Shown: positions 58,668 to 64,000 of the stretch, one piece after another
Numbering within the stretch: position 1 is the first letter of the stretch
How the letters are laid out: every line of letters begins with the position of its first letter
Origin: Pseudacidobacterium ailaaui
GTDB lineage: Bacteria; Acidobacteriota; Terriglobia; Terriglobales; Acidobacteriaceae
NCBI RefSeq assembly: GCF_000688455.1
Contig: NZ_JIAL01000001.1
Location: 1,209,001-1,273,000, forward strand
Length of the DNA stretch: 64,000 nucleotides
Direction: 5' to 3'
Translations under genes and position numbers: made by a program
Notes under the pieces: model-generated
The model's input: only the letters and a program-made list of their open reading frames with translations
Told to the model about the DNA's origin: nothing
Database searches by the model: none

Positions 58668-60236
58668 GTGCGCAAGCTGCGTTGTGTTCTCTCCTCGATC
58701 GTTCTGGCTGGTTTTCTTCCTGGCGCCTTGGCCCAGCGCGAAATTACCGCAGATTTGTCCCATATCACGGGCCCACATACAAAAGTGCCGCTCATGGTCG
58801 TCGGCGCCGGACGCGCAAATGAAGGGCTGCGCGCAGACTGGCAGGAGCAACTGGCCGACGTGCAGCAGAACATCGGGTTTCGCTACATCCGGATGCACGG
58901 GCTGCTCTGCGATGACATGGGCGTCTATTCGGAAGACAAGGATGGCCGTCCAATGTACAACTTTCAGTACATTGACGCGCTTTACGATGCGCTGCTGCGG
59001 CTGAAGATCCGGCCCTTTGTCGAGATCGGCTTTACTCCCTCCAAGCTGGCCAGCGGCCCTGAAACCATCTTCTGGTGGAAAGGCAATACAACCCCACCCA
59101 AAGACCCGGTACGGTGGGCCGCATTGATCCGCGCCCTCGTAGCACACTGGCGTGAACGCTATGGCGAGAACGAGATCCAGACCTGGTACTACGAAATTTG
59201 GAATGAGCCCGACCTGACCGGCTTCTTCCACGGCACACTTGAACAATATCTAAGCCTCTACAAGACCACGGCTGAGGCCATCAAGGCCGAGTGTCCCAGC
59301 TGTCGCGTAGGCGGACCCGCCTCGGCCATGCCCTTCCGCTATGAGCAGGAACTGGTGAAGTATTGTGCAGCCAATCATGTCCCCATCGATTTTGTTTCTT
59401 CGCACGCCTATGGCGTAAAGCAGGGCTATCTCGATGAGAACGGGAATGCAGGCACAGTGCTCGATCCTTCGCCGGACGCAGTCAGTGGGCGCATGCAGGA
59501 ATCACGTGAGCTGTTGCAACACTCCCCACTGCCGAAGCTGCAGCTGCACTTTACGGAATGGAGTTCAGCCTATACGCCCAGCGACCCGATACATGACCAG
59601 TATCATCAGGCCAGTTTTATCCTGGACAAAATCAAACGTGCCTCGCCTTACGTGGATTCCATGTCCTACTGGACCTTCACGGATATTTTTGAAGAGGCCG
59701 GGCCGCGCTTCACCCCCTTTCACGGCGGTTTCGGCCTAATCAACGATCAGGGAATCCACAAGCCGTCCTTTTATGCCTATGAATATCTGGCGCGCCTCGG
59801 CGATGAAGACGTCTCCGACACTGACCCGCAGTCCTGGGTAACCAAGTCTGGCGACAAACAAGTGCAGGCTCTCTTCTGGGACTACTCGCCCGAGGTCCCC
59901 CCACAAGGCGAGAATGATCAGACCTATTACAAAAAAGGGTTACCCGCGCGCGACAAGGGCACGGTGCATCTTGTGCTCCAGCACCTGCCGGATGGCCGCT
60001 ACGCGCGCCAGATCTATCGCATCGGGTATGGCATGAACGATGCGTACAGCGATTATCTGGCGCTGGGTGCACCGTCTCAGCTGACTCCGGCGCAGGTGCG
60101 TTTCCTCAAAGAGAAGGACAGCGGCGCCCCTGTCATGGAGGACCTTATCACAGTTACTGACGGCAGCTATACCGCAGATTTTCCCATGCGCACGAACGAT
60201 GTCTATCTTGTGGTACTCAGCAGAGTTTCTGAGTGA
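58668..60236 (+). CDS. Secreted glycoside hydrolase family 39 enzyme (beta-xylosidase type)
   Basis: 522 residues. GTG start after TGGAG. Signal peptide RKLRCVLSSIVLAGFLPGALAQ. GH39 barrel: GFRYIRMHGLLCDDMGVYSEDKDGRPMYNFQYIDALYDALLRLKIRPFVEIGFTP, acid/base E180 in WYYEIWNEPDLTGFF, VDFVSSHAYG-like DFVSSHAYGVKQGY, and nucleophile E297 in LHFTEWSSAYTPSDPIHDQYHQA. A beta domain with the GTVHLVLQHLPDGRYARQIYRIGYGMNDAYSDYLALG block follows. It likely releases xylose from xylo-oligosaccharides. Confidence 0.91.
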   Translation: MRKLRCVLSSIVLAGFLPGALAQREITADLSHITGPHTKVPLMVVGAGRANEGLRADWQEQLADVQQNIGFRYIRMHGLLCDDMGVYSEDKDGRPMYNFQYIDALYDALLRLKIRPFVEIGFTPSKLASGPETIFWWKGNTTPPKDPVRWAALIRALVAHWRERYGENEIQTWYYEIWNEPDLTGFFHGTLEQYLSLYKTTAEAIKAECPSCRVGGPASAMPFRYEQELVKYCAANHVPIDFVSSHAYGVKQGYLDENGNAGTVLDPSPDAVSGRMQESRELLQHSPLPKLQLHFTEWSSAYTPSDPIHDQYHQASFILDKIKRASPYVDSMSYWTFTDIFEEAGPRFTPFHGGFGLINDQGIHKPSFYAYEYLARLGDEDVSDTDPQSWVTKSGDKQVQALFWDYSPEVPPQGENDQTYYKKGLPARDKGTVHLVLQHLPDGRYARQIYRIGYGMNDAYSDYLALGAPSQLTPAQVRFLKEKDSGAPVMEDLITVTDGSYTADFPMRTNDVYLVVLSRVSE

Positions 60237-61328: not shown

Positions 61329-61529
61329 ATGGCTCATCTGACCCTTGTGTACGGCTTGCGGCTCTTGCCCGCCGACGAAATTGCGGAAGTGGGCGAGGCC
61401 CCGATCCAACTGAAAAATGGCAACACCGCGCGGGTGACCATGCACGTCCTTGAAGGCACGCGCGAGCAGATTGAGGCGCAACTGCGGCAGAGTTTGGACG
61501 CCTTCTTTGATTTCTTTCCGGAAATCTGA
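61329..61529 (+). CDS. Small protein of unknown function
   Basis: 66 residues with an ATG start and compact composition: AHLTLVYGLRLLPADEIAEVG, a short beta region, then a helix-rich end GTREQIEAQLRQSLDAFFDFFPEI. No signal peptide, membrane helix or known motif. It is divergent from trxB with 102 bases between the start codons. I do not recognise it; codon third-position use is consistent with coding, which is why I list it. Confidence 0.55.
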   Translation: MAHLTLVYGLRLLPADEIAEVGEAPIQLKNGNTARVTMHVLEGTREQIEAQLRQSLDAFFDFFPEI

Positions 61530-61673
61530 CAAGACGACCGGTTGTCAAAGGAAAATCACGATTTTGTTTTCATTTTGGGAACAGATGAAGGCACAGTCCC
61601 AAAGTGAAAACCTAGACCACGGAGCGCGCACTTTTCTCCTCAAGTCTCTGCCTCCCTGTGGCGGAATGGAAGC

Positions 61674-64000
61674 ATGTTCCGTCGGTCCCTGCCAAGCCTT
61701 GCCGTCTGTGCCCTGTTTCTGGCCCCACAGGCCGCCTTCTGCGGAGGCCCGCGCTGGGTCGCAGGCTCGGGCTATTTTGATCCTTCAGTCAAAGGACGGC
61801 CTGTCGTCTGGAAAAACGGGGCCGTTTCCTACTACCTTGATCGGGGAGATTTAAGCCCGTCCACAGACTCCGGGCAGGCGGCCGCCATGGTGGCCGCAGC
61901 CGCGTCTGCATGGAACCAGGTGGCCACAGCCGCGGTCAACCTTTCGCCGGGCGGACTGCTGGACGAAGACGTGAACGGCAGCAATGTTTTTCTCAATTCT
62001 GACGGCGCCCTTCAGATGCCGGCAGACATACAGTCCACCGCAACCGGCAAACCTGTAGCGATTGTCTTTGATGCGGACGGGGCCGTCATCAATACACTGC
62101 TTGGACCGGGAGCCAGCGATCCTTCTGACTGCCGCGACAATGGCGTGATCACGCTTGTAGACAATCTCGGTACAGATGCCACGATCCGGCACGCGCTGAT
62201 GGTGCTCAATGGCCTCTGCGCGGGCAATCGTGGACAACTGGCCGTCATGCAATACCAAATCATGCGTGGCTTTGGTCGCATTCTCGGGCTGGACTGGTCC
62301 CAGGCCAATGAAGAAGACTTCGCCAGCCACAACATCACGTCCGACGACCTGGCCGGATGGCCCATCATGCATCCGGTTGAGTATCTCTGCCAGTTTTCCA
62401 GTGCTTTCTGCTCGCCCGACTTGAGCGCCCTGCGCTATGACGACATCGCCGCACTGAACCGGCTGTATCCGGTAACGGCGGCAAACATCAGCAGTTTCCC
62501 CGGAAAGGTCCTGACAGCACCTGCAACCATTTCCCTCCAGGGCACCATCCATTTCCGCAATGGACAAGGAATGCAGGGCGTGAATGTGGTCCTGCGTCCT
62601 GTCCTGCCAGGGACCAATCTCCCCGATGTTCGTTATACCGTCACCGCAGTCAGTGGTGCGTTCTTCCAGGGCAATGCCCCAAACCCGGTGAATGGCGCTG
62701 TGGATACGCAGGGAGATCCGGTCAATGAGTACGGCAGCGATGATGCCTCTCTGGAGGGCTGGTTTGATCTGAGCGGGGTCCCTCTGCCGGCGGGCACAAA
62801 CATTGCAGATTATCAACTCAGCTTTGAAGCAATCAATCCGCTGTATGCTGCCAACAACTCTGTGGGTCCGTATCAAAAGGGCCAGGTGACTCCCTCTGGC
62901 ACAATGCCGGTCATCCTGCTCCATGGCCTGACCGCGGGGACCCAAACTGTGGAAGACATTGTGATTCAGGACTCTGCCAACCAGCAGTACAGCGGAGACG
63001 ACGGCACGGAGACGGCCCCGGCGCGGATACCGCCAAGTGGAGAATGGACCGGCCGCATCACTGGATATGGCCATACCGCATGGTTTGACTGGCCGGTGCG
63101 TCCCTACCGTGAGCTGACGGTGGAGGCCCAGGCGCTCGACGAAGACGGAAGGCCCACCCTGAACAAAGCGCAGGTCGTATTGGGTGCGTGGAATGGCTCG
63201 GATGCCCCGGGGTCTGCTCCCGTCAGCGGTACATCACAGGCATTCAACGGAGCACAAACCGGGCTGACGACGCTCTCGGTGGCCACCGTGGCCCCCGGTC
63301 ATCTCCGTCTGGGGATAGCAGATGCACGCGGTGATGGGCGTCCGGATTATCTTTACCACGCCCGCCTGCTCTATGCAGATTCAGTCACCCCGACCCGTAT
63401 CTCTTTGGCGGGCGGTCCCATTACGATTCGCGGTGTCGGCTTCCGCCCCAATGCCGTCGTCACCGTCAATGGGGTCCGCGCTGTGGTCACTGGAGTTACA
63501 CCCACTGAAATCACGGCGATCGCCCCTCCCGCCAACGGGAAAACAGGTGTGGTCCTGCTCACCGTAAGCGACCCGCAGACGCTGGGTGTGACTGCGATCC
63601 AGGACGGCCTGAGCTATGACGCACTCGGCGGAGATGCCCTGGGAATTGTCACAGCACCCTACGGCCCGGTAGGCCTTGGCGTCTGGACACCGTTTACGGT
63701 AAAGGCGCTGGCGGCCGACGGCCAGACGCCCGCCGCCGGCGTTATCGTAACGTTTTCAGTGACAAACGGCGCGGCGGTGCTCGGTTGTGGTCAGCCTGTC
63801 TGTTCGGTGCTTTCAGGCGGAGATGGGCTGGCTTCCATCAACGTAGCGGCAAATACCCTCTCCTCTGCGCAGGTAACGGCCTCTCTCAGCGATGACGCAA
63901 GCGTCATGACGGAATTTACCGGCAGTGGAACGCCGGTCATCGCCGCACTTACGCCCAATCTGTACATCGCTGCCGATGCCTCTTTTCTCTGGGCCCCGCA
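61674..64000 (+). CDS. Large secreted protein with degenerate matrixin-like domain and IPT/TIG repeat (3' end outside window)
   Basis: Open from ATG 61674 to the right edge (775 codons, no stop). Signal peptide FRRSLPSLAVCALFLAPQAAFCG. Residues about 30-260 resemble a matrixin-type metalloprotease domain (AWNQVATAAVNL, YDDIAALNRLYP), but where HExGHxLGLDHS is expected the sequence is RGFGRILGLDWSQ (R198 to Q210), so the zinc histidines and the catalytic glutamate are lost. A beta-sandwich region follows (GTIHFRNGQGMQGVNVVLRP), then an IPT/TIG domain at about 570-645 (ISLAGGPITIRGVGFRPNAVVTVNGV) and an Ig-like domain at about 650-750 (FTVKALAADGQTPAAGVIVTFSVTNGAAVLG). Probably a surface or secreted adhesion or binding protein; inference. 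Confidence 0.82.
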   Translation, partial: MFRRSLPSLAVCALFLAPQAAFCGGPRWVAGSGYFDPSVKGRPVVWKNGAVSYYLDRGDLSPSTDSGQAAAMVAAAASAWNQVATAAVNLSPGGLLDEDVNGSNVFLNSDGALQMPADIQSTATGKPVAIVFDADGAVINTLLGPGASDPSDCRDNGVITLVDNLGTDATIRHALMVLNGLCAGNRGQLAVMQYQIMRGFGRILGLDWSQANEEDFASHNITSDDLAGWPIMHPVEYLCQFSSAFCSPDLSALRYDDIAALNRLYPVTAANISSFPGKVLTAPATISLQGTIHFRNGQGMQGVNVVLRPVLPGTNLPDVRYTVTAVSGAFFQGNAPNPVNGAVDTQGDPVNEYGSDDASLEGWFDLSGVPLPAGTNIADYQLSFEAINPLYAANNSVGPYQKGQVTPSGTMPVILLHGLTAGTQTVEDIVIQDSANQQYSGDDGTETAPARIPPSGEWTGRITGYGHTAWFDWPVRPYRELTVEAQALDEDGRPTLNKAQVVLGAWNGSDAPGSAPVSGTSQAFNGAQTGLTTLSVATVAPGHLRLGIADARGDGRPDYLYHARLLYADSVTPTRISLAGGPITIRGVGFRPNAVVTVNGVRAVVTGVTPTEITAIAPPANGKTGVVLLTVSDPQTLGVTAIQDGLSYDALGGDALGIVTAPYGPVGLGVWTPFTVKALAADGQTPAAGVIVTFSVTNGAAVLGCGQPVCSVLSGGDGLASINVAANTLSSAQVTASLSDDASVMTEFTGSGTPVIAALTPNLYIAADASFLWAP

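Follow-up and report, generated by a model that had tools for sequence, protein, structure and literature searches.

The metzincin pseudoproteases treated in the excerpted part of a 2024 review are animal ADAMs together with a worm relative, and the word 'matrixin' is absent from that part (PMC11266112). In the pseudo-ADAMs ADAM11 and ADAM23 the zinc histidines are replaced while the Met-turn stays; the motif table in the same excerpt gives ADAM11 as QTLGQNLGMMWN and ADAM23 as QSLAQNLGIQWE, with tryptophan at the third ligand position (PMC11266112). A second described system is the mtz-tim pair of Listeria, in which, according to the portion of the report used here, the gene of a secreted metzincin adjoins that of a small exported TIMP-like partner (PMC8235301).

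The window, by which we mean the whole stretch of 64,000 nucleotides of Pseudacidobacterium ailaaui DNA that was analysed, carries at its 3' end the gene of a secreted protein whose N-terminal domain is homologous to matrixins (Table 1). The initial annotation had described it as a secreted matrixin-like protein in which both helix histidines, the glutamate and the third histidine are gone while flanking signatures persist, and this description holds: all four residues are missing from RGFGRILGLDWSQ, and the LNRLYP signature is retained. The protein reads RGFGRILGLDW at this point, and the HExxHxxGxxH/D zinc motif with the catalytic Glu of M10A is absent. As judged by eye, there is no propeptide segment in front of the domain. 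The group to which the window protein belongs is like the pseudo-ADAMs, so far as the excerpt cited above describes ADAM11 and ADAM23, in having the zinc histidines replaced, the Met-turn kept and, in most members, tryptophan as the third ligand residue. It is unlike them in that the pseudo-ADAMs belong to family M12, are eukaryotic, have Gln rather than Arg at the first histidine, and are single-pass membrane proteins.

Table 1. Features of the pseudo-matrixin locus. Positions are those of the window; single residues such as E75, D95, D140, H150 and M209, here and in the text, are numbered from the start of the mature protein.
Feature	Position	Strand	Remarks
Intergenic stretch	61530..61673	+	66-codon ORF upstream, pseudo-matrixin gene downstream; position of the companion in companion-bearing relatives
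Secreted pseudo-matrixin gene	61674..64000	+	Runs past the window edge to the equivalent of 64574; 966 aa at full length in the genome
Sec-type signal peptide	61674..61742	+	Assigned by eye from the alignment; mature start GGPRW as in homologues
Matrixin-homologous domain	61743..62477	+	Mature residues 1-245 = protein residues 24-268
Antisense ORF, 407 codons	61851..63074	-	Overlaps the pseudo-matrixin gene
E75	61965..61967	+	85/87 pseudo rows; not conserved in intact relatives
D95	62025..62027	+	87/87 pseudo rows; gap in 30/33 intact rows
D140	62160..62162	+	87/87 pseudo rows; gap in 32/33 intact rows
H150	62190..62192	+	87/87 pseudo rows; Ser in 19/33 intact rows
Degenerate zinc helix RGFGRILGLDWSQ	62265..62303	+	Mature residues 175-187; occupies the place of HExGHxxGLDHSQ
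Met-turn-like PIMHP	62361..62375	+	M209 in 83/87 pseudo rows; intact relatives mostly P-x-M-F-P
LNRLYP	62454..62471	+	C-terminal signature of the matrixin-like domain
IPT/TIG domain	63378..63578	+	Residues 569-635; Pfam PF01833, 34.3 bits against a cutoff of 20.9
Big_1-like Ig domain	63696..63902	+	Residues 675-743; 18.3 bits, below the Pfam cutoff

Scans of the window protein against Pfam and NCBIfam found no peptidase, only TIG-like and weak Ig-like matches, and there was no M12B match in Pfam. On the whole protein, Big_1 of Pfam scores 33.8 bits over two stretches, against a cutoff of 34.9. Because Pfam gives no peptidase match, an automatic scan would miss the relation to matrixins. The 407-codon antisense frame noticed at the outset is indeed present as an ORF; antisense frames over the orthologues were found to cluster too in the gene-context comparison, and we read this frame as a shadow of constraint on the sense strand.

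Matches to the domain occur in 24 of 61 near genomes and in 186 of 300 genomes of the family Acidobacteriaceae; viral contigs were also searched for relatives of the domain, and none were found. The 127 distinct domain hits were reduced to 120 rows by dropping seven, four with an unreadable motif (L128, one L140 piece and two L158 pieces) and three that were too short (an L158 piece reading G first, an L140 piece reading R, and the cut L146). In these readable rows the place of the first zinc histidine is taken by Arg 87 times and by His 33 times, with no other residue, and it is this first motif residue (R or H) that defines the two groups, referred to here as pseudo and intact. Two short intact rows (L125 and L150) were dropped later, giving 87 and 31 rows for the tree and companion counts. 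Among the 87 Arg rows the second ligand position is R in 69, Q in 7 and another residue in 11 (one of them H), and the third is W in 69, Y in 8, F in 5 and another residue in 5 (again including one H). All three histidines are lost in 85 of these rows and the Glu in 86, the exceptions being L071, which keeps the second His, L163, which keeps the third, and L144, which keeps the Glu. All three histidines and the Glu are kept in 31 of 31 intact rows. The initial annotation had left room for an isolated mutation, and this is excluded: a whole branch of relatives (87 rows) carries the same substituted motif, and intact homologues exist yet form a separate group.

That the Arg is found in 87 of 87 rows is informative only because a tree built with the motif masked returns identical groups. 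In this tree, for which the motif and the three preceding residues were masked and L157 was left out, the 87 Arg rows and 30 His rows lie on opposite sides of a single branch with a support of 100. The split amounts to one change on the masked tree and likewise on the tree with the motif kept (118 rows). The root of the tree is assumed. We infer that the His state is ancestral and that the direction is loss rather than gain, because metzincins in general have the motif with histidines. When the combined profile was run against the whole class, 23 matches lay outside the family, and all 20 of those examined are intact; these comprise 18 in the tree together with L125 and L124, with G366, G376 and G445 left out. 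L124 was missed under the HMMER filters, scores 47.9 bits unfiltered and reads HEMGHIQGLAHS; it stands outside all of the 87, 33 and 31 counts.

The intact relatives, which come from the same bacterial class and are M10-like, have the same domain as the pseudo group. Profiles built from 54 pseudo and 29 intact domains were compared with hhalign, and aligned over 246 columns with a probability of 99.9% and an E value of 9e-38, with the zinc helix, the Met-turn and the LYP segment collinear. The features in common are the GGP start, D33, W57, D110, G113, the Met-turn and the DD..LYP segment, and the following domain also looks alike by eye. Differences are that the intact proteins keep HExGHxxGxxH, that their frames are mostly 446-659 codons long, and that the three which were scanned have neither the TIG nor the Big_1 match of the window protein. 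For these three, the best-scoring Pfam family is Peptidase_M10 (PF00413), which at 27.3 bits passes the cutoff of 24 in one and at 22.8 and 18.6 bits falls below it in the other two. The comparison indicates that the window domain shares ancestry with the active-type zinc matrixins. An AlphaFold model of the domain has a pLDDT of only 32.5, from an alignment of three sequences (the window together with L003, an Acidobacteriaceae bacterium, and L004, an Acidobacteriales bacterium, both from metagenome assemblies), so the metzincin fold of the domain is deduced from homology.

Purifying selection on the pseudo-matrixin domain is indicated by dN/dS values of 0.031-0.205 in 13 pseudo pairs (>80% identity), ratios that are rough because dS is above 1, close to saturation, in several pairs. 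No more than three of the 87 pseudo rows retain one of the four catalytic and zinc residues. On these alignments the group is a pseudopeptidase in the usual meaning, with the catalytic and zinc residues lost across orthologues and the sequence under purifying selection. The proposal of a matrixin-like domain with its zinc site lost is well supported by the profile alignment, by the single change on the tree, by the substitution in 87 of 87 rows and by the low dN/dS.

The likeness to metzincins might in principle be a coincidence of the LGLD-S stretch. The lack of a peptidase domain in Pfam fits this, as does the weak performance of the pseudo-only profile against solved structures, where MMP-9 appears at E 0.8 and a polynucleotide kinase is on top at E 0.017. 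Polynucleotide kinase came first in both profile searches of the PDB (E 0.0026 with A1 and 0.017 with A5), which counts against the matrixin reading; we rejected it as the identity of the domain, as the match spans only about 75 residues from just before a DxDG stretch. Against coincidence stands the whole-domain match to intact matrixins with its three collinear elements, and the combined profile, built from 44 pseudo and 4 intact rows, also matches MMP-12 in three segments that are individually weak but collinear, which together make a protein with no metzincin in it extremely unlikely. Nearly as hard to maintain is the idea of a decaying protease gene without any remaining function. The catalytic residues are gone, and a few broken copies do exist: G201 has stops in its companion match and nothing but pieces at L158, and G302 carries one internal TAG. 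However, frames of about 1000 codons are found in most cases among the matches listed, and neither the dN/dS range nor a single replaced motif throughout the branch is what decay would leave. With one replacement shared by an entire branch, the window protein looks like a 'dead enzyme' that has been preserved rather than a broken gene, and it probably binds something.

The residues conserved in the pseudo group but not in intact relatives provide clues as to what has taken the place of the zinc site. In addition to those in Table 1, P93 is present in 87 of 87 pseudo rows and is a gap or another residue in almost every one of the 33 intact rows, while R175 is found in 87 of 87 by the definition of the group, with another residue in intact rows. 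C159 (86/87) and C223 (84/87) are conserved in the pseudo group only. L73 and G121 are also found in 87 of 87 pseudo rows, but are present in one third of intact rows too. From this pattern, the zinc site appears to have been changed rather than merely erased. One explanation would be a neofunctionalised enzyme, with E75, D95, D140, H150 and R175 forming a new active or metal site in the old cleft. The invariance of D95, D140, H150 and R175 (87/87, against gaps or different residues in almost every intact row) resembles that of catalytic residues and holds down to 38% identity to the window domain. Some of these residues may be structural, however, D95 and D140 sit in insertions found only in the pseudo group, and the scans of the window protein against Pfam and NCBIfam gave no enzyme family. 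We regard a new enzyme as unlikely, if worth keeping in mind. A structural metal site at H150/D140 was also considered. Alternatively the domain could be a pure scaffold with no ligand of its own, capping the N-terminus of a surface or adhesin-like protein (with its TIG and Big_1 domains) as a folded unit. This would suit the Ig-like C-terminal part, and the two pseudo-only cysteines may form extra disulphides; but a mere cap need not hold several polar residues invariant, and a cognate companion gene is kept at half of the loci. The scaffold is accordingly an improbable explanation, and a binding role for the conserved domain is preferred.

The companion is a secreted protein of about 200 aa. 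Neighbourhood comparison showed its gene directly upstream, and on the same strand, of intact matrixin genes and many pseudo-matrixin genes. It adjoins the matrixin at 30 of 30 decidable intact loci (one is undecidable, and L157, one of the 30, is a fusion), whereas the window clade is without it. Among the intact rows are thirteen members of the family, nine of which were chosen through their companion match, so the less biased counts are 17 of 17 outside the family and 4 of 4 for the first loci inside it (L027-L030), in both cases detected with the matrixin profile only. At the pseudo loci the companion is present in 43, absent in 43 and undecidable in one, a distribution that takes three changes on the tree; 41 of the 43 absences fall in one clade that includes the window, the other two being L015 and L021. 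The companion profile matches 124 of 300 family genomes, and it has no match anywhere in the genome of the window.

The companions differ according to their partners. Two blocks, EPHP and N..N.GLF, have residues that are retained in 25-31 of the 31 companions of intact matrixins; both blocks are lost in the 43 companions of pseudo-matrixins, where Q82 is replaced by E in 37 of 43 and F/Y83 by W in 42 of 43. A universal EPHP switch was rejected, as by eye the block is absent from the fused companion of L157 and from companions at the level of the phylum. The companion had no match above cutoff in Pfam or NCBIfam, and profile searches of the PDB gave no credible relative, only antibody, nanobody and designed nanocage chains. 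It is similar to the TIMP/NTR inhibitors in being a small exported companion of a matrixin, and its sequence pattern may, as judged by eye, resemble an OB/NTR fold. No TIMP or NTR match was found in 15 companions with Pfam at E values up to 10, a search in which the HMMER filters drop most weak matches. The arrangement is also like that of the Listeria mtz-tim pair, with a secreted metzincin and a small exported partner encoded side by side; it differs in that, in the excerpt of that report, the Listeria metzincin keeps its zinc motif and cleaves its partner, and the protease gene comes first (PMC8235301).

Of 297 genomes of the phylum, 128 have a match to the companion profile. In one genome of the family (L157 in G186) the companion and an intact matrixin share one frame of 922 codons. 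Of 40 phylum loci sampled, 15 (among L196-L215) have the companion at the N-terminus, followed within one frame by a metzincin motif, which is HExGHxxGxxH in 14 and HELLHAMGLGH in one; this share is not a frequency, because 16 of the first 20 loci were picked for long frames. By eye, the fused companion begins within or after a hydrophobic leader. Another 16 loci have a separate HExGHxxGxxH frame downstream of the companion, in 6 a matrixin match with a variant motif lies downstream, and 2 (L217 and L222) also have matrixin matches. L214 (G655) is the sole case among the 40 in which the companion gene has no matrixin match within 8 kb.

We consider it fairly probable that the window protein is a secreted pseudo-matrixin that arose from a pair of a protease and a prodomain- or inhibitor-like companion, and that it is now a binding module for another ligand. 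Originally the companion would have been a split prodomain, an inhibitor or a chaperone of the protease, helping it to fold, inhibiting it or delivering it. After the loss of zinc the domain would have persisted in a binding role, to begin with alongside its companion (as at 43 of 86 loci). In the window clade the companion has gone, and the rebuilt cleft (R175, H150, D140, D95 and E75) may bind another ligand, the module being displayed outside the cell on Ig-like domains. As the clade is without the companion, binding to it cannot explain why the domain is conserved there. A more specific version, which we put forward only tentatively, is that the protease and prodomain-like pair became a non-proteolytic recognition pair, whose conserved pocket of Arg, His, Asp and Glu, rebuilt from the zinc site, bound the old companion at first and then, in the lineage of the window, a new extracellular ligand. 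For what the domain bound in the beginning, the companion offers the strongest clue. We rejected, as an explanation for the group at large, a decoy role in which the pseudo-matrixin would soak up companion on behalf of an active paralogue, as the window genome has a single family match and no companion match. The repurposing for binding suggested in the initial annotation is what we infer.

If this is true, it describes a bacterial clade of matrixin pseudoenzymes and an undescribed companion domain of matrixins. A branch of dead matrixins with intact sisters in the same class makes the path from enzyme to binder testable, and the steps in the branch are ordered, with the zinc site lost and the companion lost later in one clade. 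The companion, which across the phylum occurs either as a separate protein or joined to a matrixin, is itself a candidate prodomain or inhibitor family. A search of openly licensed papers brought up no report of the pseudo-matrixin clade or of the companion, which is weak evidence of novelty.

It is worth adding some observations on the surroundings of the gene. A 66-codon ORF at 61329-61529 (+), upstream of the pseudo-matrixin gene, has no Pfam match, and matches to it of 59-92% identity are found in many examined loci, often though not always near a pseudo-matrixin. Further upstream, at 58668-60236 (+), is a glycosyl hydrolase family 39 protein (Pfam PF01229, E 3.1e-100). In one relative (L103, in G287) the pseudo-matrixin lies inside a frame of 2218 codons, about twice the usual length.
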